Below, one piece after another: positions 6,099 to 47,295 of a DNA stretch of 64,000 bases. The position numbers and the translations under genes were made by a program. The stretch is from Gautieria morchelliformis (lineage: Eukaryota > Basidiomycota > Agaricomycetes > Gomphales > Gomphaceae), in contig WHVA01000023.1 of the NCBI GenBank assembly GCA_015179125.1, positions 372,001 through 436,000 on the forward strand, written 5' to 3'. How positions within the stretch are numbered: position 1 is the stretch's first letter; each line of letters opens with the position of its first letter. A model generated the notes under the pieces. The model was not told where the DNA came from, did no database searches, and saw nothing but the letters and a program-made list of their open reading frames with translations.

Positions 6099-6490
6099 GG
6101 AGGTTGTTCAGATTGACAATAATGTACATTCTTCTTGGATATATTCAATATCTTTTAAAATATCAACCATAACCAAATTCATCACATATCATTTTGAGCA
6201 ATTTGTATATTGTGGATATTCTAAAAAATTTTAAATGTTCTGAGATTTTAAAAATATGTTTTTATGTGCTGAAACATAGTGTTTATTGAGATAACAGAGC
6301 AGTGTCGGATAGGATTTGGATAACCATATGTTAAAAGTATATAGGAAATTAGTTAGATGTACAATGATAAAATGTAGAAGCAAGTATATACAATAACTCT
6401 GGTAAGTTTGATATATCTGATTAGAAGGTATGTTTAAAATAATATGCATGTATCTTATGAAGATATATAACTATTGATGTTTAGACAAAT
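6099..6490 (-). repeat. Diverged inverted copy of the 577-bp repeat
   Basis: This segment is the reverse complement of the right three quarters of the 577-bp repeat found at 7932-8508 and 13841-14417. It begins GGAGGTTGTTCA, matching the repeat end CATCCTCC region, and continues through AATGTACATTCTTCT, TTTTAAAATATCAACC and TGTTTAGACAA in the same order. It carries many substitutions, unlike the two nearly identical copies, so it is an older insertion of the same family. Confidence 0.75.
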
Positions 6491-7931
6491 GCTTGTCCTT
6501 GGATGTATGAGTGGGGTTAGGTCGGTGGGGTGAAGAGGGCGAAACTACTTCAAAAAATGTAATTTAATTTTTCACAAACTTCCATGTTTTTAGTGCCTGA
6601 AAATCAGTGCTCAAAAGAACTTATTTTTAGTGCTCTTTAATGACATTCTTGAACAGTGATTCCCAGTGAAAGGTGGTCATGGTGGTGTATGGGAACTGCT
6701 GTTCAACCAGCATACTGTATAGTCTCGGATCAAGCTGTTCAACCAGCCTTCAAACTGTCTTTACTGTAAATTTGTATTCTGCATCAAAGGCCTTTAAAAC
6801 AACCATTTATCGCCATCATAAAAATGTCTACTATCCTCATAAGGCCTATTCAAACCTCCCTCTAATTATCTATGAATTTTACTTAATTTTCCGAGGCTGT
6901 CTTCACTCAGATCACTTATTTCTGTGCAGCAGAGTTGTGGATACACATGTCCCCACAACTCTGTTTTGGACTTCTGATTTCAAACTCCAACCAGACACTC
7001 GCGTCACTTGCGGATTGTGCACCCGCGGTCACCCACAAATCTGGTCAGGTGGCTCCTTCAGACTCAGCCTCTGAGTTCGAAAAGCCTAGTCATTTGCTTG
7101 TACAGCCGCAATGACTCAACCGACTCATGCACACCTTGGTAAGTCACATGTACATGACTCACCCAAGCTGTCATAAATCACATGAGTCCAATTCATGACT
7201 CATTCCTGACGAATCAAGCGCTGATTGGTGGAAAACCCTGTGGAGTCACCAGTAGGAGTCATTTCAAGTCACTGTGAGTCATTATGAGTCAGACAGAACC
7301 TTCCCACGCATTCTGAAAGCTTCTTCATGACTCATTCCCCCATTCCATTAATAGATAGAAGGTTCTACCGCTTAGTTAAGCGCCTGTACAATATGATATA
7401 AAAGGAGGCCCTTTGCCTGCCTTTCATCAGCCAATCTACCCATCTTCTATCCTACATGTGACATCGTGTGACTTGCATCTTACTAAGCTGCTAATCCCAG
7501 CTAGGGTTATTCACTTACTTTAGTGTCTAATTCCTAAAAAGTAGTTACTTTACTGCTTAGCCACTTGGACTAATCCTCCAGGTGTAATTCTACAGGGTGA
7601 GTCTGTCAATTGAAAGTCTTGCCATTCACACTCCAATACCCGAGACGATCTGATCAGTCGATTTTCCTGATTAGAGACTTTCACAAGTCACTTTGTTCAC
7701 AAAACTCGTCCCTCATTTTATTGCAGTGCGCTGGTAGATTATCAGGGCAGTCCATTTATAAACTCGCCTGCTAAGTACATTCCTTTATATTTGTAAGGAC
7801 CCAGCCTTTGGCCAGTTACTTACCGGTATAAGCTTCTTCCGAGCCCGAGTACTTGTGATTCTAATCCTGCGCCCGAGCCCGAGCTCGAGCTAGAGCTCAT
7901 ATCCGACCTTGATCCGATGCCCTAATCCCCT
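6491..7931. other. Repeat-like intergenic DNA with TGACTCA motifs
   Basis: No gene is supported. From about 7130 to 7340 the motif GAGTCA/TGACTC occurs many times in both orientations, followed by a TATA-like ATATAAAAGG near 7395. This resembles the promoter half of the TGAGTCA-bearing LTR at 26901-27868, so the stretch is probably an old LTR, but TG...CA ends and a target duplication were not found. Around 7860-7900 there is a GAGCCCGAGCTCGAGCT-type low-complexity palindromic patch. Confidence 0.4.
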
Positions 7932-8508
7932 TAGGAGGATGGTTGTAACTGTCATATATATGTATATATAGCTTAGCTCATCTATATTTCATAAAATATA
8001 TCAAAATTGAGGCAGTTGCCAGCATCTGTAAGGCATGCTTAATCCTAGCCCCAAAGTTCTTTCTCACAGTCTGCTGCTCCCCCAGGAAAAGGTGTATACC
8101 CCATTGTCTAAACATCAATAGTTACATATCTTTGTACTAATACATGCATATTATTTTAATCATACCTTCTAATCAGATCTCTCAACCATATATAATAATA
8201 TAGTACAGGTATTGTCCATACTTGCTTCTATATTCTGTGATTGTACATCTAACATGTTTCATGTATACTTTTAATATCTAGTCATCCACATCCTCTCTGA
8301 AATTGCTCTGTTATATCAATACACACCATGCTTTAGCACATACAACCATATTTTTAAAATATCAGAACATTCAAAAAATTTTAGGATATCCACAATATAC
8401 AAGTTGCTCAAAATGATGGACTATGAATTTGGTTAGGGTTGATATTTTAAAAGATATCTAATATATCCTAGAAGAATGTACATTGTTGTCAATGTGAACA
8501 TCCTCCTA
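7932..8508 (+). repeat. 577-bp terminal direct repeat, left copy
   Basis: It begins TAGGAGGATGGTTGTAAC and ends AATGTGAACATCCTCCTAG, so the repeat itself has short inverted ends (GGAGGATG/CATCCTCC). It is non-coding and AT-rich. It differs from the right copy at only a few positions, for example GGAAAAGGTG versus GGAAAGGGTG. Its right edge supplies the stop codon of the neighbouring transposase gene. Confidence 0.85.
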
Positions 8509-9810
8509 GTAGCGTCTACCCTTCTTCTTTTGACGTCTATTGTAGTCCTCTATGCACTGCGTTGTATCAAAATCTTCCTCCCTTACCCAAGTGTGATCTT
8601 CATAGTTTTTCCATTGAACTAAGTATTCTTTTCTCTTTCCTTTTGTCCTATGATCTACTATTTTGTTCACTTCATATGTATCTTCAATATCTTGGTCAGA
8701 TTCATTTGTATCTGTACCTGCTAATAATCGTGCTTGATACTTAGACATTTTCTTTGCATCCTCTGTAATATCCTTTAGAGTTGAGATTCTCAGTGACTCA
8801 AAGTCGAGGGTATCAGTTGATGGATAGTCAAAATGGCTCTCCATCCATGACATATGATTAGGTTGTGCTTGGAGCTCTCCTAATTTAACAAACCGTTTGG
8901 TATTAAGCAGCAAGCATGCTAATCTAAACTGCAAAGAGAATATCTTAGGATTTGAGGTTTGGACAGGCTTCTGATTATTTAACTTCTTAAATGTCATTCC
9001 TAACTCTCCAAATAAGCTTTCTATCTTTGATCTGAAACTACCAAATCTTTCATTGTAACACTTCTCCATATCTGATAGTTCAGCATTCTTCTGCTTCCGA
9101 ATTGGATGACAGAAATTCATTTCTTTCAATCTACCTTGCTTTACTACTTGTTTCACAAATAGTGTATAGCCTCCATCAAGAGCCATACGATCTGCCTTAT
9201 CCATCTTATCTCTTAAGTTCATTTCTGTGAACATTGCTCCATCAGAGTGGCTACATGGCAATGAATCAGAAACAAACAAAGACATCCCATGAAAATCCAT
9301 AATTACTTGAGTTCTCATTCCAGAATTTCTGTGTTTATGTGACCATTGTACTTTAGATGATCTTCCTATTTCTGTTCCTCTTGTCTCATGACCATCAAGG
9401 AATAAAGTTATTGTGTTGAATAGTTCTTCCTTATTATTATCCTTTGCAGATAATATTCTAATCCTTATGTTGGAAAACATATGAGCCAACAAATCAATGA
9501 TTTTGTCATTTAAGTCATTATTAAGGTCCTTTTCATGTCCAAAGAAACTCTGATGGATCGCATGAAAAGTACTCCCAGGTATAAATCTGTTCATATCACC
9601 AAATGTACAACCTTCAAGCAGATGATAGAGTATTAATAGTCCCTTCTCTACATTTCGATATGGACCTGGATGGTGCTTGAATGGAAACAACACTACTAGG
9701 AAGAAAAACACTGGTATTGGTCCAAGCTTCTCTAATACTCTTTTCTTGACGAGATCTATTTCAGAAACAGGTTTTAGTCCTGATCTATGAAATTTAGTTG
9801 GCTTCAACAA
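8506..9810 (-). CDS. DDE transposase with C-terminal chromodomain
   Basis: This is a cut-and-paste transposase of the DDE_Tnp_4 (Harbinger-like) type; residues are numbered from the codon at 9810. The catalytic triad is visible as D139 (FLDGHETRG), D190 (SHSDGAMF) and E264 (SKIESLFGEL), with an ALDGGY motif at about 211-215. The last 60 residues form a chromodomain (EYLVQWKNYEDHTW core), a histone-methyl-lysine reader fold better known at the ends of chromovirus integrases, where it can steer integration. The open frame has no ATG at its start. In frame upstream lies ATG 9885 followed by 15 codons and a TAG at 9837-9835, so this copy may carry a nonsense mutation near its N-terminus. The stop codon TAG overlaps the edge of the 577-bp repeat. 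Confidence 0.85.
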   Translation of the reverse strand: MLKPTKFHRSGLKPVSEIDLVKKRVLEKLGPIPVFFFLVVLFPFKHHPGPYRNVEKGLLILYHLLEGCTFGDMNRFIPGSTFHAIHQSFFGHEKDLNNDLNDKIIDLLAHMFSNIRIRILSAKDNNKEELFNTITLFLDGHETRGTEIGRSSKVQWSHKHRNSGMRTQVIMDFHGMSLFVSDSLPCSHSDGAMFTEMNLRDKMDKADRMALDGGYTLFVKQVVKQGRLKEMNFCHPIRKQKNAELSDMEKCYNERFGSFRSKIESLFGELGMTFKKLNNQKPVQTSNPKIFSLQFRLACLLLNTKRFVKLGELQAQPNHMSWMESHFDYPSTDTLDFESLRISTLKDITEDAKKMSKYQARLLAGTDTNESDQDIEDTYEVNKIVDHRTKGKRKEYLVQWKNYEDHTWVREEDFDTTQCIEDYNRRQKKKGRRY

Positions 9811-9885
9811 AGGCCATTTTTCATCAAGAAACCCCTAATGTTCATTCATCAACATTTGATATTCTTCAAGGAGTGACTCATTCAT

Positions 9886-10289
9886 TATAAAGGAAAGTTC
9901 TCAGCTACAACTATGAGTCGGAAAAAGGAGTGTTGTATAGTGGAGTTCATTGATAAGATGACGACTTTATATATTTCGATTTTATATTGCATTCACTATT
10001 CAACTCTCTAAATAAAACCATAAACAACGTAAAAGGAATATATAATTTTACTGGAATTATATTCTCAACTACTGGTCTGGATTACCTTCCACAATAAGTG
10101 ATGACATATACACTAACAGATGGAGATAAATCAATCAAACCAAACTTTGTAGTTAGCAGGCATGATTATAATAACAGTCTTTGTGATGATATGTAATTTA
10201 AACAACAGTGCTAGGACCTAGTTGACAATTTAATTATAAAACCAGATTAGATGAGTCAGTATTGAAAATTGATTCTGTGAAATTGTAAA
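9886..10289. other. Divergent intergenic spacer of the transposon
   Basis: An AT-rich, non-coding stretch separates the minus-strand transposase from the plus-strand triple-repeat ORF, so both genes would be transcribed outward from here. TATATATT-like runs occur near 9970, but no specific promoter element can be assigned. Confidence 0.45.
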
Positions 10290-11453
10290 TTGGGTCTAGT
10301 AGCCATGGAAGCCCAGATTGTCAAGCTCTCTAAAAGGATTGACAGAATCACAGAATGGATAGAAGAAAAAGATGAGATAATATCAAATCTCAAACAGATA
10401 TCTAAGGAACAACATAGAGAGATTATAGAATTAAGAGAGCAGATTAAAAATAATAAGCATGTAGGATTGCGAATTAGAAAGATGGCTGGATGTTTTCTAT
10501 TTTATGATTCACAAGATAATTGCTATAATCTAGAGGATATGCATGTCTTTATAGATGAAAAACCTCGCAAGTTGTCTACAGTGTACCGTAAAAAGAAAGA
10601 CCTGGTATCATATGATATCATAGATAATCAAATCAATTTTATGACAAAACAACACCACAAACCAGAACCAATGGTTCATGCTCAAAAGGAATCTCAGCTT
10701 ACTCAAGAAGAAATAAGCGGTAGAAACTTTAAATTTGATATCAATAGTATCACAGAAAATTGTAGGGTATATAATTCAGAAGATAATTACTTTGAGTTAG
10801 CAGACATGGATGTATTTATAGATGGAGAAGAAATATCCCCTTTAACAGCATATGATGAAGAGGATGATCTAGTATCATATGAGGTCAATGATAATAATCA
10901 AATAAATTTGCTAACAGCAAAACCAGATAAATTGGATCGTGCTAGATATATCAAAGGAATCACACCAAGTTGTAGAATACACGATTCAGAAGGTAATTAC
11001 TATGAGTTGGCAGACATGGATGCATATATGGATGGAAAAGAAGTATCCATTTTAACAGCATATTATGCACGTAAATATCTGGTATCATGTGAGGTCAATG
11101 ATAATAATCAAATAAACCTCGTGACAAAACCAGATAAGAATTGTGCAAAGGATAGTTTGGTAAATAAGTCTCCTCAAATGAGTAAAACTAGATCAAAACC
11201 AGATAAGCAATCAAAACTAGCTGAGATCTCAATATTTGATACTCTTGATGAGAAAGGAAATATCGATACTCGATCGATAATTGAGATTGATGATGAGATA
11301 CGCAAGCACCATAGATTAGATTCCAATAATGAGAGATCAATGTTAGATATGGCCAAGGAAAAAAAGGATAGATCAAAGGTAGATGAGAGATCAATCTTAA
11401 ATATTCTTCAGGATAGGTGCCCACCAATAATCCTAGAAGATGAGGTATTGTGA
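10290..11453 (+). CDS. 387-residue protein with three internal repeats
   Basis: I do not recognise the family. Residues 8-55 are rich in K, E, I and R with a heptad-like pattern and probably form a coiled coil. Three copies of a module of about 53 residues follow at 67-119, 157-209 and 227-279. Each has the order C-[RF]-[VIL]-x-[YH]-[DN]-S-[EQ], then an [LA]-[ED]-D-M-[DH] turn, a short [FY]-[IM]-D segment and D-L-V-S-Y...NQIN near its end. The C-terminal 100 residues are polar and rich in D, K and S. It lies in the same transposon as the chromodomain transposase and is transcribed divergently from it. Harbinger elements usually carry a second, Myb-like protein; no Myb motif is visible, so a comparable DNA-binding or partner role is only a guess. 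It has no frame breaks, in contrast to the transposase. Confidence 0.7.
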   Translation: MGLVAMEAQIVKLSKRIDRITEWIEEKDEIISNLKQISKEQHREIIELREQIKNNKHVGLRIRKMAGCFLFYDSQDNCYNLEDMHVFIDEKPRKLSTVYRKKKDLVSYDIIDNQINFMTKQHHKPEPMVHAQKESQLTQEEISGRNFKFDINSITENCRVYNSEDNYFELADMDVFIDGEEISPLTAYDEEDDLVSYEVNDNNQINLLTAKPDKLDRARYIKGITPSCRIHDSEGNYYELADMDAYMDGKEVSILTAYYARKYLVSCEVNDNNQINLVTKPDKNCAKDSLVNKSPQMSKTRSKPDKQSKLAEISIFDTLDEKGNIDTRSIIEIDDEIRKHHRLDSNNERSMLDMAKEKKDRSKVDERSILNILQDRCPPIILEDEVL

Positions 11454-11975
11454 CCTCTACATTTGTGAGTCATGGAACCTTGTCCATCCATTGATATAAA
11501 AACTTGGAACAGCATATAAGCTGAATTTCCAAATGACCCATAGAGTATACAGACATAAGATGGTATTATTATCATGGAATCTGAATTTAAATCCTATTAG
11601 ATTGATGAATTATGTATCATACATGTTTGTTTCTAAATACTAATTCAAGTACTGGAATTATCATCATATTCCATGGTAACTATTACTGTAGGATATATGA
11701 ATGTATTTCTACCAAAATCAGAGCTTATAATGTTAGAGATAGAATAAAGTATAATTACTAGTCATTGTTATCTACTCATGAAAGTGAATGTATTGGTTAT
11801 ATAAGTCATTCTATATGAAGGATATGTAGTAAGAGTAAAAATCATAATATTTAGCAATGTTTCTATTAAGATTCTTGATGATAAATATCAAGACTGTAGA
11901 AACTAAACTTTTAAACAAAGCTGGTACACTATCTTATGACTCATAGATTACCTCACCAAGTTGTAAAACGTAATA
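11454..11975. other. Non-coding interior of the transposon
   Basis: AT-rich DNA between the triple-repeat ORF and the tRNA-like segment. No ORF or repeat of note was seen. Confidence 0.4.
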
Positions 11976-12045
11976 GACCAAATAGCTTAGTTGGTAAAGC
12001 ACCCTATATACTGACGGGGTCCCAGGTTTGAACCCTGGTCTGGTT
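11976..12045 (+). ncRNA. tRNA-like sequence with pol III A and B boxes
   Basis: The 70-nt segment folds as a tRNA except for the anticodon arm. The acceptor strands GACCAAA and TCTGGTT pair with one mismatch, the D stem is GCTT/AAGC around AGTTGGTA, and the T arm is CCAGG-TTTGAAC-CCTGG, a perfect 5-bp stem. TAGCTTAGTTGG fits the A box and GGTTTGAACCC fits the B box. The anticodon stem is poor and position 33 is not U in the most natural fold, so it is probably a tRNA-derived SINE head or tRNA pseudogene. It lies inside the transposon and overlaps the 3' end of the minus-strand 243-residue ORF. Confidence 0.5.
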
Positions 12046-12735
12046 AATCGAACTTTCATTATCAGGGTCTGTAATACTTTCAAGTATATGTTTAAACATA
12101 TATTCGACAATGTCACAGACCTCTAATGAATCTTCTGTGATTTTTATACCAAATGGTCTATATAAAATCATAGGGGTTCGACCTCTTATTTCTATATTTG
12201 TTGTTTTGTAAACTTTTATTCTTCCATCTTGTAGTACAAGTATACCATAGACTGGGATTTTTTCCTGTGATTGAGAATAATACATTGTAGAATATAATGC
12301 AAACATCATACCCCTTAATAAACTATTATATATACAACATTCATTACATTTATCGTATGCTACAAGTAAAGGATACTTTATTTTACCACTTGATATTACC
12401 TTTGCAATCCTGATACAATGGGAATCAGGACTTAACACCCATTGTGAAACCATAAAATATGATATGCTCCTTATTATTAAATCATACAGCTCTTCAGAAC
12501 TGTAGAGCTGTGGAAGGATAATGAGCTCTCCACTAGAAAATTCTGACCATTGTTCCAAGAAAATTTGTTTGTTATCACAAATGAAGGTTTCTGTCTTTAC
12601 TTTCAAACCTCCCATTTTAATGAGAGACCTGTGGCCAATTGCCTTGATACCATCTGATTCAAAGGTTTGGGTACCACCAAAAAGGGCAGATATCTTACGG
12701 ACAATCCATTTTATAGCGAGCATCATCTCCTTCAT
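12004..12735 (-). CDS. Unknown 243-residue transposon protein
   Basis: An uninterrupted minus-strand ORF starting MKEMMLAIKWIV. Family not recognised. It has an amphipathic N-terminus, a central hydrophobic segment (LIIRSISYFMVSQW), a paired cysteine motif CNECC at about residues 131-135, and a C-terminal half with alternating hydrophobic strands (PVYGILVLQDGRIKVYK). That pattern resembles the nuclease-like accessory proteins seen in some fungal elements, but no catalytic motif could be assigned. The last 14 codons overlap the tRNA-like segment on the other strand, so the natural C-terminus may have been altered by that insertion. Confidence 0.55.
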   Translation of the reverse strand: MKEMMLAIKWIVRKISALFGGTQTFESDGIKAIGHRSLIKMGGLKVKTETFICDNKQIFLEQWSEFSSGELIILPQLYSSEELYDLIIRSISYFMVSQWVLSPDSHCIRIAKVISSGKIKYPLLVAYDKCNECCIYNSLLRGMMFALYSTMYYSQSQEKIPVYGILVLQDGRIKVYKTTNIEIRGRTPMILYRPFGIKITEDSLEVCDIVEYMFKHILESITDPDNESSINQTRVQTWDPVSI

Positions 12736-12747
12736 CTATGTGAATTG

Positions 12748-13320
12748 ACAACTTTGTGAAATCAGTTTTTATTTAGCATGTTGTGTAGTTCTAGTCATGA
12801 CCTGGTAGAAATGCATTTATCTACATGCCCATAGTCGCTTAGTGTATAATCTTATGCCATTGTGTGATAATAGGCACTAAAAAATATTATCTACAGCGCT
12901 AAGATACTCTTTACTATCAAACAAGGCATGCAAAAAGGTATGTTAATGAACTATAGATAAGAAATAAACCCTTACACATATCAGCAGGCACCAACATATA
13001 TACAGTAACTGAACATGACAGTGTCTTACTGTTTGATATTATTGCAGTTGGGTCACGTATTCCTCCACCTCATGAAAAGAGGACTACCACGATTTATAAG
13101 AAATGTCAGTCCGAAATTTTAGGTTCTTCACGCTGACTGATCTCATAATTAGCTACTTACAAGCTGAAATATATAGCAAAAGGCATTCAAAAAAGAGTCA
13201 AGTCTATTCTGCGACTGTAGATAATAATCATATGATTCTATAACTAATAGGAGCTGAATCCTGTCAAAACAAAAAGTGAATACAAACTGAGTTTAATATA
13301 ATGTACGAGCTGGATCAACA
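12748..13320. other. Non-coding interior of the transposon
   Basis: AT-rich DNA upstream of both the minus-strand 243-residue ORF and the plus-strand 70-residue ORF. No specific regulatory element could be identified. Confidence 0.4.
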
Positions 13321-13533
13321 ATGCTATATATCCCTACAGTAGGAGATAAAGTGACATTTATACATCCAATGACTGGGGAGGATATGAAGGGTGTTGTGAC
13401 AGCAGTAGATATTCTAGGGAGCACAGCGACTATCCTTTATGATAAAATAGGGCCAATATGTGGACCTTTTCAGTTAATTTCTAGAATACCAACATACCAA
13501 AAATTTGAAGCACTAAAAGAAATAATTGAGTAG
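13321..13533 (+). CDS. Small 70-residue transposon ORF
   Basis: The ORF starts at an ATG (MLYIPTVGDKVTFIHP) and has a beta-rich pattern of alternating hydrophobic residues with glycines, like a small barrel (SH3 or Tudor-type). A pattern such as GDKVTFIHPMTGEDMKGVV resembles a barrel strand-turn-strand. No family is recognised and it could be chance. It is included because its composition is protein-like and it lies inside the same mobile unit. Confidence 0.35.
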   Translation: MLYIPTVGDKVTFIHPMTGEDMKGVVTAVDILGSTATILYDKIGPICGPFQLISRIPTYQKFEALKEIIE

Positions 13534-13840
13534 ACTAACCCTGTGCCTGAATGAAGTGAACATATTCATATATAGGCTGATTAATATCCAACCCTATATA
13601 TACTAGAAAAGAATAAATTTTTCAGACCTCACATTGGTGAGTTTTTTTAAAAAACCCTTTTATAACTTACCATCTAGTAAGGAGACTGATTTGTTCTCAT
13701 ATTATAGGGTGAGGTGGCAATTTTGTTATAGGGAAATAAATAAATCTCCCTCCCAAGTGATAGCTCCACCGACAAGGATGTTTTTCCAGAAGCTTGTTAA
13801 CTTTCTCAGTGAGTCAATCTTGTTGAGGCATGTGATAAGC

Positions 13841-14417
13841 TAGGAGGATGGTTGTAACTGTCATATATATGTATATATAGCTTAGCTCATCTATATTTCA
13901 TAAAATATATCAAAATTGAGGCAGTTGCCAGCATCTGTAAGGCATGCTTAATCCTAGCCCCAAAGTTCTTTCTCACAGTCTGCTGCTCCCCCAGGAAAGG
14001 GTGTATACCCCATTGTCTAAACATCAATAGTTACATATCTTTGTACTAGTACATGCATATTATTTTAATCATACCTTCTAATCAGATCTCTCAACCATAT
14101 ATAATAATATAGTACAGGTATTGTCCATACTTGCTTCTATATTCTGTGATTGTACATCTAACATGTTTCATGTATACTTTTAATATCTAGTCATCCACAT
14201 CCTCTCTGAAATTGCTCTGTTATATCAATACACACCATGCTTTAGCACATACAACCATATTTTTAAAATATCAGAACATTCAAAAAAATTTAGGATATCC
14301 ACAATATACAAGTTGCTCAAAATGATGGACTATGAATTTGGTTAGGGTTGATATTTTAAAAGATATCTAATATATCCTAGAAGAATGTACATTGTTGTCA
14401 ATGTGAACATCCTCCTT
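13841..14417 (+). repeat. 577-bp terminal direct repeat, right copy
   Basis: Direct copy of 7932-8508 with only a few differences. It starts CTAGGAGGATG on the core side and ends CATCCTCCTTA at the outer edge, giving the TTA that matches the left flank. Confidence 0.85.
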
Positions 14418-14746
14418 AGTTACTGATTCCGCTCCATCACACATCATTCGTATATTACCTTGCCCTGACCTCACCCTGACCGTCCCCCGAATATGCTCGC
14501 CCCTGACTTGTACCCTCGCTCGTATATAAACCCCCCTGTATGCATTCCTACTCCTCAGTCTGAAAATCAACTATCGTACCTCTTGATCCTTAGTTAGTTT
14601 CTAAGCCTTCGCCTCTTGAGCCAAACCTCGCCTCTTATTCATTTACCTCTGAAATTGGAACTTGTGCGTAGGGTCGGCGCAGCACATAAGCTGAAGCCAA
14701 GTCCCTCTCCGACCTCCCTATCAGAACCTCGCTCGGTAACCTCGGT
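14418..14746. other. Flanking DNA with TATA-like element
   Basis: No gene. A pyrimidine-rich stretch is followed by a TATATAAA-containing block near 14523, which looks like a core promoter of an older retroelement or an unidentified transcript. It leads into the LTR beginning at 14747. Confidence 0.35.
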
Positions 14747-19790: not shown

Positions 19791-21480
19791 TAAACCACAG
19801 AAGAAAAGTTCTCAGTCAGGATACTTATCATTTCATCTTTCTTTTTATCATGGACTGCGTCTCACCTATTCTTTCACGTTTTCCATCACATCAAGTCGAG
19901 TCGAGCCGAGTAGAGGCGTATATATGCTATGCGCCACCGAGCCGCGTCATCAACCTAAGCCTATCATCATATATTTTATTATCACCCTCATCCATTCAGC
20001 CTCTTTTCGAGTCAAATATTAGCCAGACCCGACAAATTATGCACACAGGGGCACATGAAATCATCATTGAGGCTAAACTTCGATTCAGGCAGGAATAAAG
20101 AGCCCGGATAATCATTATCATTATTTTCCCCTGTCCATCACCCCTGTACTTCACAGTTTAAATAGTTGGACCTTACACAGAAGAAAAACACAGACTTTAT
20201 GATTTTCTTCCAAGCCTGCTTTGAGTTACAAACCACTCTGGATTATCTTTGTTTTTTTGTCACTCTAAATCTTAAAAGCTTTGAGTTATAAGCTTCAAGT
20301 TACATTCTGTTCCTATCATAAAAACATACCCAACACTTGACCTCACCCTTGCTCTTATAGATTAAATGTCTCATGGACTCACCATGGCTCAACTGACCAT
20401 GGCTGCCCTTCCACACCCGAAACATGATATTCACAAATTCCGTGATATCAAACCGAAGTCCAGTAAAGACAATTGGATGTCCTGGAAATGAGAATTACTT
20501 GCCACAGCTCAAGACAGGGGATTATACAAAATGATTACTGGCACAGATGATTATCCAGACAATACCAATGGCACTGTTGTCATACATCTGTGCCAGTAAT
20601 CAGTTTGTATAATCCCCTGTCTCGAGCTGTGGCAAGTAATTCTCATTTCCAGGACATCCAATTGTCTCTACTCAGCTTCAGTTTGATATCACGGAATTTG
20701 TGAATATCATGTTTCAGGTGCGGAAGGGCAGCCATGGTGAGTCTGTGAGACTTTTAATCTATAAGAGCAAGTGTTGGGTATGTTTTTACGATAGGAACAG
20801 AATGTAACTTGAAGCTTATAACTTGAAGCTTGCAAGATTTAGAGTGACAAAAAAATGAAGATAATCCAGAGTGGTTTGTAACTCGAAGCAGGCTTGGAAG
20901 AAAATTATAAAGTCTGTGTTTTTATTCTGTGTAAAGTCCAACTATGAAGTACAGTGGTGATAGATAGGGGAAGAATGATAATACTAATTATCTGGACTGT
21001 TTTTTTCTGCATGAATTGAACTTTAGCATCAATGATGATGCTATGTGCCCCTGTGCACATAATTAGTTGGGCCTGGCTAATATTTGACTCAAAAATGATA
21101 GAGGATCAAGGAATGAGGCTGATAATGGAATGTATGACGAGGGACTCATGGATTGATGAATTGATGACTAGGCTCGTGGTATGACTCGTTGAATCACTCG
21201 TTGACTCAACTCATACCTGGTGAAGATGTTCCCTGCTCGGTAGTATGCATATATACGCCTCAACTAGGTGTGATGGGAAATGTGAAAGAATAGATGAGAC
21301 AGTCCATGATAAAAGAAAGATAAAATGATAAGTGTCCTGACTGAGAAATGTCCTTCTGTGGTTTAATAACAGTGGTGAATTACTGTGATGGCATAAGTGA
21401 AGTTGAATAATGTGGTGTGCATGTTTACTCAGGATTATTAGATGCTTGATTGGCTCTGCAGCCACTGGGCTTGTCATTTA
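19790..21480. mobile_element. Foldback element: head-to-head retroelement ends
   Basis: The segment is a giant imperfect palindrome centred near 20590. The left arm runs 19790-20590 and the right arm (20590-21480) is largely its reverse complement, sharing the AGAAAAACACAGACTT, CTCGAAGCAGG and ACTTATCAT blocks. Near the centre each arm encodes the start of a Copia-like Gag (MAALPHPKHDIHKF, then DNWMSWK, a stop, and ELLATAQDRGLYKMI). Two 5' ends of one retroelement therefore face each other with no pol between them. A second locus with the same architecture is at 26731-29139. Confidence 0.65.
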
Positions 21481-21519
21481 TTTAACAAACTCGGCCAAAT
21501 GTATGTGAACTGTACCACT

Positions 21520-22166
21520 AAGTATTTCTGACATCTTGATGAATTTAAATTCTACAGAGCTTAAATCTTATTCAATTTCAATGGAAAGTGAGCTAAACTG
21601 CTGAATGATGAAGCGGTAAGCCGACAAGAGGTAATCTGAGGTGCAGCATGTCACATGTTAGGGCCAGATGCGAGTGTGTTTTCAATATCCAATCATTACA
21701 GTAATGATCGCCAAGCTGTGCATGGTCATCCTCGAATGGGAACAGATGTCACGACATTGCTACATTTCGAGTTGTAACCAGCGTCTCTTACATAAACTCT
21801 TTGGACAGACTGGCCCCACATACGCCGCGGACCCGTGTAGATCTCGCCCGCAAATGGACTGTGGCGTTTGACTACAATATCAAGTTGACCGCAGCTCACA
21901 CGGCTGTCTTCGATGTCCCGCGCAATCAAGGATCTCATGCAGTATGTGACTAGTGTGCTTTCATTAGGCTCTTTCGCTTCTCTAACAGCTTGGCGACACA
22001 GAGGCCAGTAGAGCGGCAGTCTAGGCTTCCTCCGAATATATACCTCTGGCGACTCTCATCAACCCTCAAGCACATACAATTTCAAGCACAGTCACTGGCT
22101 CGTTTTTGGTCGCTTATCTGACATGTACCGACACAGTGTAGGATTCTCGCTGATATTCCTACGATT
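21520..22166. other. Intergenic, upstream of the DUF6535 gene
   Basis: No gene supported. An additional 5' exon of the DUF6535 gene could lie here but none could be confirmed. Confidence 0.35.
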
Positions 22167-24792
22167 ATGCGTACTGACTTGCTTGGGTTGCTGCATCAGC
22201 CCGTCGTGAAAGGCCGTTACCACTCTGCGTCGAAGCATACTTTTGCTTCACAGTTGGGTCTCGAAGCCGATCAAGCTCTCGGGAATGACCTGCGTGGCGA
22301 AGGCAAGCTATGGTCTATGTATGCCAAGGAGTCAATAGAATACGACAAGGCCATGTTGACAAGTTGGAACGATTCCCTGGACGTCTTGCTCATCATGGTG
22401 AGCAAGGTTGTATATGACACGTTTATGGGCGCGGCTCAAAAGTAGGCCTAAGGCCGGCCTTTTCTCTGCCGTCCTTACATCCTTTATCATTGACTCTTAC
22501 AGAATGTTAACTCCTGACCCTCAAACGACAACCACCACACTCCTTTTTCACATCACGCAACAACTCGATACGTTGCTACCCACAAACAATAGCAATGTAG
22601 ACTCGCTCTCTGGGGTTTCGTTATCGCCGCTCATTACCCCCTTCCAACCATCATCTTATATATGGTGGATTAACGCCATCTGGTTCTCGAGTCTAATGTG
22701 CAGCCTCTCCGCCGCATTTTTCGCCATGCTCGCTAAGCAATGGCTCCAGGCATACACTTTGAATCGTCCGGGCCGTATGGAAACACACGCTAGGCAGCGT
22801 CATTTCAGATATGCTGGTCTTGTTACTTGGAAAGTATCCGAGATCATTTCTACCCTCCCTATTCTTTTACAGGTAGGGTTTTCCTTGTTTTTCGTAGGGC
22901 TCGACATACTCCTGTGGTCCATCGACCCTGATATGGGGTACATATTGATCTCCCTCACCGTCCTTTTATTAGGATTTTTTGTCATTACAACGATCGCACC
23001 GCTCTTTGACCTTGCATGCCCCTACAAGACACCATTTTCTTTGACTGTGCGCATGCAGGTTCGATGGGCGTACTGCCAAGGATCCGCATTAACGGAGTAC
23101 ACACGCGCTTTGTTCAGCGCCATTCGCTTTCGGAACCCCATCCCTTCATTCCAATTGAATCACGCCCCGTCAAACTCGGAAATGGAGCGTGCTGGCATCG
23201 ATGAAGCATGTCACGTTCTCAACGTTGGAGCCATAGGATGGCTGGTGGCTACCTCGCACAACCTCGAGGTGGTCGACGTAGCTCTGAGAGCGACATCTTC
23301 TCTTAGGCCAGACTTCAGTGCAACGTCAATGCTTCTCGAGAGTGGTGCTATCCACCTGCTAGCGGATAGACTGGAGCCTCCCTTCATTGAGGATCCATCG
23401 TCCGAGTCGGCCTCCGTCGCCTTCAGGCGACATGCTGCAAACAGCATCCCATACCTTGCCTCCATGTTTTGCGCCCTGCGCCATTGCACGCAAAGCGACA
23501 TAGCTCCCATACGCCTCAGTCGCTTTCACTGGCGAGCATGGATTGTTTCATGGGGTGACTTCACCCTGGAACAGCGCGTATCTGAAGGCTGGGACCTTGA
23601 CGCACTCGCCTTATACCTGTGTGCCAGTACTCAATGCGACAGAGCAGAAGGTCGTCGTGCGAATAGGGAGTTCGGTGTCATGGTGGAACTTCTGAATCGG
23701 CATTCTTCAGGAAAATCCCATTTGCAGAGTTTCTCTGTCTGGGCGTTGGTCGACACTATTGCACTCTGGGGTGCCGAATTCGGTGAAGCGTCGATGACTT
23801 CGACTCGTCCGGCAGTGGCTGCATGCCTACTTCGACTCTTGGGGTTGCCGTATACCATGGGAGACCCTGTCACCTGCGCTATAGGAGTAGCACTCGGTGT
23901 CTTCGTTCTTGGCTTCCAGAAGCACGAAGTGGCCCAATATAGAGACGAGGAAACGAGGCGACAGGACGCCCAAACCTTACTCATACGCGGGGTCGTCGAC
24001 ATCATAAAAGACAACCCTCACGACACGGCGTCGCGGTACTGCCTTGGAGGAACCGATTTCGAGGCCGGGGGGTTGGTTATCTGCAAACTGCTCATCGAAA
24101 ATAATGTCCCATCGTGGCCTAGCGGGGCATCCACGGCTTTAATCTCAGTGCTTTCATTCTCCAAGTCCGAAAGCTTGACGTGCAGGGTCTTGGAAACCTT
24201 CCGACGACTACTTTCCTTTGATTCGCAATCGACGGTCCCGAAATTATCATCTACAATCATTCCACTCCTGGAGACGCCAGCGACGGAACCCGTGCAGATC
24301 AAAGCGACACAGGTCCTTGGAGAAATGATGCACTGGAGGGAACATAGAAAGACCGTCCTTGGACAGCGTGGTTTGCGCGCCCTCATCCGAAACTTGAATT
24401 CCCAATGTGGCGATCTTTCCAATGCCTCCTCTCTCGCTCTGGTGGGCCTTGCAGGGGACCCAGATGCACGGGATAGGATGGTGGATTTGGGGCTAGCTGA
24501 GGGATTGACGACGTTCTTCGCTTCCAGCAGTGCCACCCAGCAAAACCTCGCCTACTGGTCGTGGACTTTCCTAGGGTCCACATGGATCGAGCGGCACGAT
24601 GTTTATGGGAGTGACTTCAAACAGACCTTCCGTGAACTGATACGTGTCTTGGAGCATTCCATGGGCGCCGGAGACGGTATGCATGACCCTAGTATGACTC
24701 CCGTCCCCCGACGTGATCTGCAACGAATTCTTCAGAGCTTGAAGCGGATATCGGACAAATGGGAGAGCGATTCACTGGCAGAGAAGGAGTGA
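22167..24792 (+). CDS. DUF6535-type membrane protein
   Basis: Family of unknown function that is multiplied in Agaricomycetes. Two exons (22167-22397 and 22453-24792; intron GTGAGC...CTAAG) give 856 residues. Around the junction the typical entry LWSMYAKESIEYDKAM...SWNDSLDVLLIM-AGLFSAVLTSF is seen. Four hydrophobic segments follow: LFSAVLTSFIIDSY, WWINAIWFSSLMCSLSAAFF, ILLQVGFSLFFVGLDILLW and ILISLTVLLLGFFVITTIA, with the conserved AKQWLQAY between the second and third. The C-terminal 550 residues are soluble and helix-rich, with armadillo-like segments such as NASSLALVGLAGDPDARDRM. The N-terminus is the first ATG of the frame; an upstream exon is possible. The gene stands alone between the two copies of a direct segmental duplication. 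Confidence 0.9.
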
Positions 24793-43683: not shown

Positions 43684-44538
43684 TTTAAACGGCACCAATG
43701 TGCCACGATATTTTTTTTCTGAATTCCTCGTCAATCGATATAAATATGTCAGGCACGAAATGTACTTTACCACCCTTTTTCGAAGCTACTGGGCTTCAAA
43801 GTACCCTTTGATTTTACTGTCAGCATTCTTTCTGTTCGACTGCGTCGAACAGGGAGGGCGAGTGTTAAAAACCGGCATAACTATAAGCGGAGATCCAATA
43901 CGGCCGACCACTTACGCACACCAAGGGTAAGACACGGGTACCTAGGCCCGTGTCTTATCTACGAAAGCATACATGTAAACTAGGCGAGAACCGACCCTGA
44001 GATATACTTGGTTCTGACTGGTTATCCCGTCCACTACAGATTTCAAAGTCCTCTCTAACTCCTTACCGGTGCGGGGCTTGAATTCAGCAGCGTTTACTTT
44101 ATCATTGGTGGTTCTCGTGAGTCCTTAACCCACCTTTTGATCAACTCAGTTGCATAACGCTGTCTGCTTGGGTGTATCAAGTCGGGGAAGAATGGAACTG
44201 CTTTACTAATTGATCTTGGTTAGATACGGCACTTCCACACCTGGACGATACTATAGCTATCTAAGAATTATTAAATTTGCAACTAGGTGTTGACATAATA
44301 TATATTGAGATAGGGAATGCACCGATGGAACAAGTCAATCATATAGTATTCATCACTGGAAGTTAGCTGGTGCGTGGTTCATGCTCGTCCATTTGCGCTA
44401 CCTGCTCAAGTACCGCAGAGCTCTATATCTTACCAAAATCATTTGAGTAAAACTTTCGGAATGATTGAATAGTATGAATACATCATTATGAGATAATATA
44501 AGCTGCCCTCAACATGACCTGGCTCATGTTATAATAAT
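43684..44538. other. Intergenic with a short hairpin
   Basis: A palindrome near 43929-43954 (AAGACACGGGTACCTAGGCCCGTGTCTT, given as arms AAGACACGGG and CCCGTGTCTT) stands in otherwise AT-rich non-coding DNA. Confidence 0.4.
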
Positions 44539-45900
44539 TCATATCGCCCAAGAGCCTTCCCTGGCCAAGATACTATCCACCGTATCCTCAAGCGTGTGTT
44601 TCCAATCTATGAATGTAGGCAGGCCGAGGACATCCTTCGCCTTACTCGTATCAAACCTAGCTGCAGGCTTCAAGTCTTCCTCAGACACGACCACATTTCC
44701 ACCATCCGCAAGTCTGCTTTTCAGGCCAGGTCTTACCTTGGCGATATGCCTTACAGCCTCCTTCCAGGTAAAAGTCCCGGAATGTAGGATGATGCGCCGT
44801 TTCTCTCCTGGCTTTCTCTCCTTGGCGGAAAGGGAGAGCACAGCACTTCTTGCGATGTCCCTAATGTCGACAGCGTGTTGGGTCGAGGAGTCGGGAGAAG
44901 CCCCAGAAAGCAGCTGATAGATCTCCGCATTGGTGCTGAGAGATGATATGTTGGAGATGACAAGAGAAGGGGCGAAGGGACCATAGACGTATGCGGGCAG
45001 TACTGTTTGTGTTCAGTTATTTATAAGGCAATGTGATGGAGAGGAACATATATAAACGTACGGGTTATGAGGTCAATTTCAGGGTGTGCTTCAGCAAATT
45101 CCCAGGCAGCACGCTCTGCAAGGGTTTTAGACGCAGCATATGTGGTGATGGCAGGGGCATCGGGCGTAACATCCTCCTTCGACACCTGTCTCCAGTCTAA
45201 CCCAAATAATGAACGACAAGAAATCAAGTCAGCTAGCGTACCCACCTTTATCAGTGAAAACGCGCGATCCGTCGGCCAGGTCTTCCGGCTTAGTGAATAC
45301 CGCAGCAAAACTGCTGAGAACTGTGATTTTGAACACTTTGGCCTTATACGCCTGCTGCATTATGTTCATCGTGCCGCCTATTGCGACCTGAAGTTACTGT
45401 TAGGTTCAGCCTGGACGACTCGAAAGGTAACTGGAGAGTCGAACCTTCCCAGGATCCGCCTCCCTCCCAATTATGGGTGAGGCAACGTGAATCACAGCAT
45501 TGACATCTGCAGTACGCATTCGGAGGACCGTATCTATTAGACAGAACGAATACGTGATTAAGCAGCCCTGCATACCCCGTAGAGCTTCAGAGAAATCGCC
45601 CCCAATGAGATCGTCCACGGCTGTTACTTCGAAGTTAGGGTGGGGGCAGTTCTTTCGCAGCTGTTCCGCCTTGTTTGAGCGAGAAGTTCTGCAGGAGCAC
45701 AATGTGAGCAGGAGCACTGAGAAAAAGGATCAAACCAGAGCTGCCTTACCCTCTTACGACGAATCCAGCTTGCAGCAGGTGTTCTACGATTTGAGAGCCG
45801 ATGAATCCGGAAGCTCCAGTGACCTGAAAGTTGAACTTTTAGGATACGGCCACTCGCAAAGAGTTGTCTAACTCACGAGTATTCTGTTTTGCGAAGACAT
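44539..45900 (-). CDS. NAD(P)-dependent epimerase or dihydroflavonol-reductase-like SDR
   Basis: Extended short-chain dehydrogenase, cytosolic, substrate unknown (family acts on carbonyls of ketones, aldehydes or phenolics). Seven exons close to 337 residues: 45900-45877, 45823-45750, 45688-45576, 45506-45445, 45387-45246, 45196-45062, 45002-44539. The start MSSQNRIL-VTGASGFIGSQI gives the GxxGxxG nucleotide-binding motif; AVIHVASPI, SSFAAVF and the catalytic Y-x3-K pair in TYAASKTLAE are present, then LPAYVYGPFAP. The C-terminal half contains the expected substrate-side KSRLADGG and an ARFDTSKAKDVLGL motif. It has no neighbouring pathway gene. Confidence 0.92.
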
Positions 45901-47295
45901 TTAGTGCGTGGTTTCAAACTTGGTTGGTGAAACCAGCCATGGTCGTCGCACCAACTTTTATACCCAATAGAACTGAATGACGTGGCCTCCTGTCTCGCTA
46001 ACGACCATTGTGCTCTGCGATATGTCGGGGACTCTGGCATTGTATAGGCTGAGCATTGTATAGGCTGACTAACTAAAACACAATCCTTACCGATATATCG
46101 CGTCACTGTTGCGTCACAGTAAAAAATAATTATTCGTAATTACTAGCATAAAGTGTCCACAGTTTTCAGCGCCCCATCCCCAACAGCTATTATCACATAG
46201 CCACACACAACCGTACTATGTAATTAGAAAGATTTAAGATCTCATGCACAACAAAGTGCAAGGCATCGAAGCGCCAAGCTTTACTCCTACAACCAATGTC
46301 GAAAGCAGGATAAGGAACAATACGCGGTGAGAGAGACTAGACAGATGGACTTGGCAACGAGAATCAGCACAGGAGTGGAGGGTGTCAGGATTCTAGAGAC
46401 AACGGGGAATACAGCATCAAGCTGACAGCCTCCAAAGTCTGTGATCCTGATGGGAGGACGATGATGACGCCGAGGGACAGACGGAGACCATGACAAACAA
46501 GGCAGGGGATATCGTCTTACATAGTGCGTGGCCCCAAAAGACAAAAATTGGATAAAAATAAATAATAAAAATAAAAAGGAAGGGGATAATTAGACACAAA
46601 AGGGAAACGACTGTCAGCTTGGAAATTCGACTGAGCAAGAGGCATCAGCAGGATTCAGTGGATGATGCGGTTTTGGCTTGGGGGACTAGGACATACAATT
46701 GCTACTCACAGAGGAATGGTTAGCGGTGAGAATGATTAGTAGCGGTGAAGTTCTTTACTGTTCATACTTTCATTCGCCTCCCGGTTCTACTATCAAGAAC
46801 CGCGTTGCCTGTTGCCACCAGTAATTGCCCACCGTCAAACATAGCACGGCCCCACAGAAAAGAAAACTAGGGCACATCATTATATATCGGAACGTGTATA
46901 TATGACAAGAAGGATCATACCACTCGAACTCCTCTTCGTTGAATACACAGATGCAAGAAAGACTGGAGAGGGGCTGGTGCATACATGCATAAACGTCATA
47001 CATGACGACGGCAGGTCATATCCGAATCTAGGCAAAGATAAGATACGAAACCGAAACGGTATGTAGGTGACGAAGCATATTATAAAATCGACCGATTGAG
47101 GAAAAAATGAATACAACATTATTACTCAGTCCATCATCAAATACAAAGAAACGTCCGGGGTTAGAGAGCGAATGTCCACGTGCAGATGTCCTACTAGATC
47201 ATGAAGAGCGGTTAGCTGACGGGACGAGCCAACCTAAACTGCACGGCGTCAACAACGTACCTCTCATAAGGCGAAGATGCTGTTCAATCGAGCCA
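45901..47295. other. Intergenic
   Basis: No supported gene; open frames are short and overlap on both strands. AT-rich near 46540-46590. Confidence 0.4.

Follow-up and report, generated by a model that had tools for sequence, protein, structure and literature searches.

A fungal element with a chromodomain-DDE transposase between long terminal direct repeats, probably a composite-like DNA transposon

What kind of mobile element carries a DDE transposase gene between two long, non-coding and almost identical direct repeats, and do the repeats and the interior travel together? The question is raised by a locus of Gautieria morchelliformis (Basidiomycota, Gomphales), lying in a window of 64,000 nucleotides, the whole stretch of DNA analysed here (assembly GCA_015179125.1, contig WHVA01000023.1, positions 372,001 to 436,000, forward strand). 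An earlier note on this DNA had described a chromodomain-DDE transposon with 577-bp terminal direct repeats and a TTA target duplication, either a new architecture of DNA transposon or a core mobilised by two flanking miniature inverted-repeat transposable elements (MITEs). Our analysis indicates that the locus is probably a composite-like DDE DNA transposon, in which a core lies between two copies of a terminal direct repeat (hereafter M), the transposase acts on the M ends, the M copies recombine with each other, and the copy in the window has been shortened.

In the window, each M comprises 573 bp, and the left and right copies differ by 3 substitutions (Table 1). The two near-identical repeats had thus been rightly recognised but measured too long: both the length of 577 bp and the start at 7932 take in flanking letters, and M-left starts at 7934. 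Each M carries 8-bp perfect inverted ends, GGAGGATG and CATCCTCC, and TTA stands on both outer sides of the element, as described before. The inner neighbours are TAG (3' of M-left) and CTA (5' of M-right), TTA being found only on the outside, and the first letters of the core are TAGTAGCG. The list of open reading frames (ORFs) and Pfam agree with a core of four ORFs, one of them for a chromodomain-DDE transposase. This copy sits on contig C260 of a repetitive genome of 122 Mb in 1113 contigs. Its flanks, when joined, align through L011:731-990 with 71% identity and a single TTA, and 40 of 40 scored matches to them cross the junction without an M-sized gap; the element therefore sits in a high-copy host repeat. 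A first look at this insertion target (window ~7790-7933 and 14419-14568) gave 1013 candidates, and the host repeat has an LTR-like (long terminal repeat-like) look.

M is a genome-wide repeat family. Allowing up to 3 mismatches, a 24-base pattern of its 3' end is found at 376 genome sites (reversed control, 0), while the search with core DNA gave at least 87 matches (40 scored of 120 candidates) and the searches with the core ends gave at least 41 left-end and 40 right-end rows (each 40 scored of 46 candidates). The 376 M sites against few core matches, among the matches listed, suggest that most M have no adjoining core. M falls into two length classes of about 573 bp and 647 bp. The copies sampled were the 40 of 506 candidates most similar to the window M, plus those found with one exact pattern, so that the short form is over-represented among solo M (22 of 25); 11 of the best 40 were not taken up as such, and L066, whose flanks equal those of L060, was left out before counting, together with other duplicates.

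Perfect 3-bp duplications flank 23 of the 25 delimited solo M, the misses being L064 and L063. The 23 duplications comprise 15 different sequences of the pattern NWN: the middle base is A or T in 22 of 23, G comes next in 19 and C stands before in 13, and TWA accounts for just 3. Given this diversity, TTA is the target of the window copy and not a rule of the family; as a TTA target duplication, the former description holds for this copy, with its single-TTA empty site, and fails for the family. Solo M with duplications of their own could have been left equally by transposition of M alone or by recombination of full units.

Two M surround a core in the same orientation at 11 loci and in inverted orientation at a twelfth (C497), with differing M sequences and flanks. 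Both M and both outer flanks could be read at 10 loci, which exclude C497 and C245 (left M truncated). Outer duplications are perfect in 5 of these (C260 TTA, C284 CTT, C345 TAT, C242 TAA, C837 GTT) and differ by one base in 3 (C448, C165, C771). A search with the joined flanks of C284 and C448 gave 40 rows, of which 32 run across the C448 junction and 3 across the C284 junction; the remaining 5 fall on the query loci or on copies of them. Wherever the core start is intact and was read (24 left ends), M adjoins it. The left ends of C455, C258 and C443, whose matches began a few bases late, proved to adjoin M. Two damaged core starts are not among the 24: at C837 the junction of M and core has a deletion, and at C812 a piece of M lies 13-15 bases from the core. 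One core-M-core tandem was found, at C202.

Two of these loci show further rearrangements. In L046 (C812) the left M is split by 478 bp, the core lacks its first ~145 bp, and the 15 bp between left M and core closely match the host flank that follows the right M. At C284, a segment of left flank, M and core start (21262-23062) recurs inverted about 22 kb away (44156-46000) with an identical 251-bp flank; an inverted segmental duplication is the probable cause.

The two M of one element resemble each other far more than they resemble other M. The median left-right distance within an element is 1.06% vs 4.85% between elements (0/20000 permutations). Left and right M are sister tips in the M tree in 6 of 12 pairs, which include C245 and C497 (0/5000 random pairings reach six), and three further pairs fall within clades of 3-4 tips; C771 and C701 each combine a short and a long M form. 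Distances between M-left copies and between the adjacent 1.7 kb of core are only weakly correlated (Mantel r 0.21, n=16 elements). For instance, the M-left of C284 and C653 differ by 0.9% and their cores by 3.3%, and those of C437 and C694 differ by 6.5% and their cores by 1.4%. Since M-core linkage is weak and the M of one element are alike, cores seem to have been paired anew with M, yet each element keeps a matching pair of M, and M-M recombination is probably part of how the element works.

The commoner right core end (at least 40 rows) belongs to longer elements; the short right end of the window copy was found in 3 (C260, C284, C771). In the longer copies an ORF of about 207 amino acids (aa), ORF5, which is not in the window copy, adjoins M together with a 116-aa ORF that follows it. 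All 11 ORF5 copies compared, with identities as low as 48%, keep the signature P-D...E-x-K unchanged, and the PADLOC profile PD_DExK matches 7 of the 11 (best 2.5e-07). The ratio of nonsynonymous to synonymous substitution rates (dN/dS) is 0.16-0.41 for ORF5 and 0.18-0.77 for the 116-aa ORF. Judged by its sequence, ORF5 is a putative PD-(D/E)XK nuclease-like gene under constraint. L082 (C387) is a diverged copy whose ORF5 is broken; there the stretch GTGATAAGCTA, which adjoins M-right in the window, runs on as core for ~1.1 kb, through the remains of ORF5 and of the 116-aa ORF, to a diverged M. In C586, C128, C271 and C644 the match with the window stops 4-26 bases short of its M-right. In the simplest reading, the window copy would be a shortened derivative, whose right end is an M that settled behind CTA within a longer core, and the nuclease gene would have been lost with the part beyond.

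These observations fit the following scheme. A chromo-DDE transposase made from the core would act on the M ends and insert a single M or a whole M-core-M unit with 3-bp duplications, mostly at NWN sites, while its chromodomain may bind chromatin or steer the element to it. M copies would also recombine with one another, perhaps under stimulation by a PD-(D/E)XK nuclease that the element itself encodes; this would yield solo M, keep both M of an element alike and let cores change M, for which entry into a resident solo M is a possible route. A bolder and only tentative version of this route treats the core as a homing-like passenger: the nuclease would cut M, and gap repair would copy the core into a resident solo M, with both flanking M templated by the resident. 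Core entry into a resident M followed by gap repair predicts both alike M pairs and weak M-core linkage. If it is true, the element would have two coupled routes of spread, transposition seeding landing pads (M) and recombination filling them.

Several results weigh against the composite-like scheme. Half of the complete loci (5/10) lack a perfect duplication, and at C133 (ATA/TAT) and C701 (GAT/TTA) the outer flanks do not match; we tentatively attribute imperfect or unmatched flanks to ectopic recombination. At C165 the left boundary is ambiguous by one base and the core is split by a large insert. Left and right M lie far apart in the tree at C133, C771 and C701. The link between M and core is weak but present, the observed r being reached by 214/10000 permutations, and the permutation tests ignore shared ancestry and use M copies picked by similarity to the window. 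ORF5 has no Pfam match and no credible PDB match (searched with a single sequence and a profile). No exact core-core junction, the trace of M excision, was found in a search with the usual right end; the pattern with up to 2 mismatches gave 140 sites (controls 132 and 125), of which 100 were listed, 85 with their letters, and the ones inspected proved to be starts of M, a site within the transposase gene or unrelated sequence. Because no such scar was seen, the case for transposase action on M alone depends on duplications that recombination might leave as well.

The rival that survives best, although we consider it unlikely, does without homing: M-core-M moves as one block, and gene conversion between neighbours keeps its two M alike. 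It draws on the matching duplications at 5 of 10 loci, the empty sites for whole units and the left-right similarity. Local conversion alone accounts for the likeness of M pairs and not for the weak linkage, since block movement predicts a shared history of M and core, with which r of 0.21 and the discordant pairs C284/C653 and C437/C694 disagree; ectopic conversion by solo M could, however, blur this linkage. A classical composite transposon, in which two MITEs flanked a core once and the block has been unchanged since, is improbable. Solo M with their own duplications and the M inside a core that made a new right end speak for it, but it predicts that left M group with left and right with right, whereas the between-element distances are about equal (left-left 5.3, right-right 5.0, left-right 5.1%) and the within-element distance is far lower. 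Of the two readings that the earlier note had opposed, one element or MITE capture, each is thus borne out in part, by whole units with matching duplications (5/10) and empty sites and by the solo M (23/25), and a static capture of two MITEs is left unsupported because the M of one element are homogenised and form no left and right lineages.

An LTR retrotransposon-like element with reverse transcription supplied in trans is highly improbable. Long direct repeats, solo copies, repeat sharing in a tandem and homogenised pairs would all suit it, but Pfam matched no reverse transcriptase or integrase in the ORFs scanned, a DDE_Tnp_4 transposase is present instead, and the ends are GGAGGATG/CATCCTCC; the retroelement reading was dropped on these grounds. 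The core start, moreover, is not known as a primer site. The repetitive genome in 1113 contigs and a few loci present twice with the same flanks (L060/L066, C455/C258) might suggest a duplicated or collapsed repeat, but such an assembly artefact, which had been named as a possible refutation, is very unlikely and the least credible of all, because junctions of core and M are met again on many other contigs, and the 11 same-orientation loci and the inverted one have different M and flanks.

Among known elements KolobokP (Kojima and Bao 2022) comes closest, which its authors set apart from all other DNA transposons (PMC9587614); it has the same layout, so the architecture was known already and the idea that it is unprecedented does not hold, while nuclease and host differ and the transposase class appears to differ as well. 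In both elements a core is enclosed by long terminal direct repeats that carry short inverted ends of their own. Solo repeats, two repeat-length classes, repeat-sharing multimers (here the single tandem at C202), a DDE transposase together with a nuclease (here putative), and the lack of a strong target preference are also common to both. The duplications of KolobokP solo repeats are mainly 3-4 or 4-5 bp, against 3 bp here. Unlike in KolobokP, the transposase matches DDE_Tnp_4 and bears a chromodomain, and further ORFs and a conserved tRNA-like segment are present. The KolobokP nuclease is a homing-type His-Me finger protein, whereas PD-(D/E)XK signatures are found here, and no His-Me finger (I-PpoI-like) nuclease was matched by Pfam at E<=1 in six ORFs. 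KolobokP is described from seven animal phyla and the present element from a fungal genome; traces of repeat excision are reported for KolobokP, and none appeared here in the one pattern search with the usual right end (PMC9587614).

The element looks like a second version of the KolobokP design, built with different enzymes. Its recurrence in another kingdom, with a different nuclease signature and apparently a different class of transposase, suggests that the combination of LTR-like repeats and a nuclease is a recurrent solution; should the homing-like route be real, it would, together with KolobokP, be a second independent evolution of terminal direct repeats with an encoded nuclease. The models proposed for KolobokP, insertion of a circle into a solo repeat and induced unequal crossover (PMC9587614), become testable in a fungus, where comparing strains can show directly whether cores invade resident solo repeats. 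For these models, the alikeness within M pairs and the weak linkage between M and core provide relevant quantitative evidence. In the open-licence literature, among the matches listed, the architecture was met only in PMC9587614 and in no PHIS element (subscription papers, preprints and Repbase were outside the scope).

By its transposase, the element resembles PIF/Harbinger and the PHIS superfamily (Han et al. 2015), with a DDE_Tnp_4-type enzyme of weak IS5 similarity, a likeness of profile matches only. The 3-bp duplications, terminal G and terminal inverted repeats (here 8-bp perfect on each M) are also shared, and the target context C|NNN|G recalls the C|TNA|G of NuwaII (PMC4482050). Unlike canonical PIF/Harbinger elements, it makes NWN duplications (3/23 TWA) and has no Myb/SANT match in the ORFs scanned. 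The chromodomain and the long terminal direct repeats set it apart from PHIS, and the terms 'direct repeat' and 'chromo' occur 0 times in PMC4482050. PHISTA, or TET+ Harbinger, of rust fungi (Kojima 2025) is likewise fungal and PHIS-related, and its third protein is without Myb/SANT; in contrast to the present element, it makes TA duplications, and the passages of PMC12730594 compared here describe no terminal direct repeats, with 0 occurrences of 'chromodomain'. As in bacterial composite transposons and IS26-type pseudo-composites, the outer repeats can exist alone, and the circular IS26-type unit that can target a resident copy is likened to the behaviour considered here; unlike in those systems, the core carries the transposase gene and the repeats around it are non-coding (PMC9587614).

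Table 1. Features of the element in the window (positions of the window; TSD, target-site duplication)
Feature	Position	Strand	Basis or remark
TSD left copy, TTA	7931..7933	.	sequence; paralogous empty site with single TTA in L011:731-990
M-left, 573 bp	7934..8506	+	inverted ends GGAGGATG 7934-7941, CATCCTCC 8499-8506
Core (internal region)	8507..13842	+	starts TAG, ends CTA; other core copies in genome
ORF1, DDE_Tnp_4 transposase with C-terminal chromodomain	8506..9594	-	Pfam; stop codon overlaps M edge
ORF2, 382 aa, repeated ~70-aa units	10305..11453	+	without credible family match
tRNA-like segment	11976..12046	+	Rfam tRNA 39.9 bits
ORF3, 243 aa, fast-evolving	12004..12735	-	without credible family match
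ORF4, 70 aa, fast-evolving	13321..13533	+	without credible family match
GTGATAAGCTA adjoining M-right, cut point of longer core	13832..13842	+	comparison with L082 (C387)
M-right, 573 bp	13843..14415	+	inverted ends 13843-13850, 14408-14415
TSD right copy, TTA	14416..14418	.	sequence and L011 empty site

Among the genes of the core, ORF1 matches DDE_Tnp_4 (1.9e-13) and Chromo (6.3e-10) in Pfam. By comparison with L010 its frame would start at 9885, with an in-frame stop soon after, and L010:1497-2876 (minus strand) holds an uninterrupted transposase copy of 459 aa. DDE_Tnp_4 is the best Pfam family of the transposase (1.7e-12) in the six-ORF scan, which, as far as Pfam matches can tell, argues against a transposase of the Kolobok superfamily; the NCBIfam profile transpos_IS5_4 gave 4.8e-04, under its cut-off. 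Pfam gave nothing credible for ORF2, ORF3 or ORF4, and no Myb match at E<=1 in the ORFs scanned with it. dN/dS is 0.54 for ORF1 (one pair), 0.5-0.9 for ORF3 and 0.9-1.1 for ORF4, the latter two possibly being relaxed or arms-race genes. ORF3 was also considered as a second nuclease and rejected, having no profile-profile link to ORF5 and no PADLOC match.

The tRNA-like segment is the best-conserved stretch of its neighbourhood, with a mean pairwise identity of 0.97 vs 0.80 on either side in 15 element copies. ARAGORN called no tRNA in the window, nor around this segment, and its anticodon arm appears abnormal by eye. A role as an RNA polymerase III promoter or insulator would be a guess.

A core with different termini, which the earlier note would have taken as contradicting a single element, was met once, in a diverged form. 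At C154 (L091, C154:44800-45430) the right end of the core is related (85%), CTA|GGAGGATA comes next, and the terminus is GGAGGAT; the body of the repeat after GGAGGATA has no significant similarity to M, and the end motif is kept. The ORF5 of this copy is 70% identical. We read it as a sister family and do not count it as a refutation.

Two minor observations concern the rest of the window. Upstream of the element, at 6434-6488 on the minus strand, lies a 55-bp M fragment (89%), probably a relic of another copy. One other protein encoded in the window matches DUF6535.

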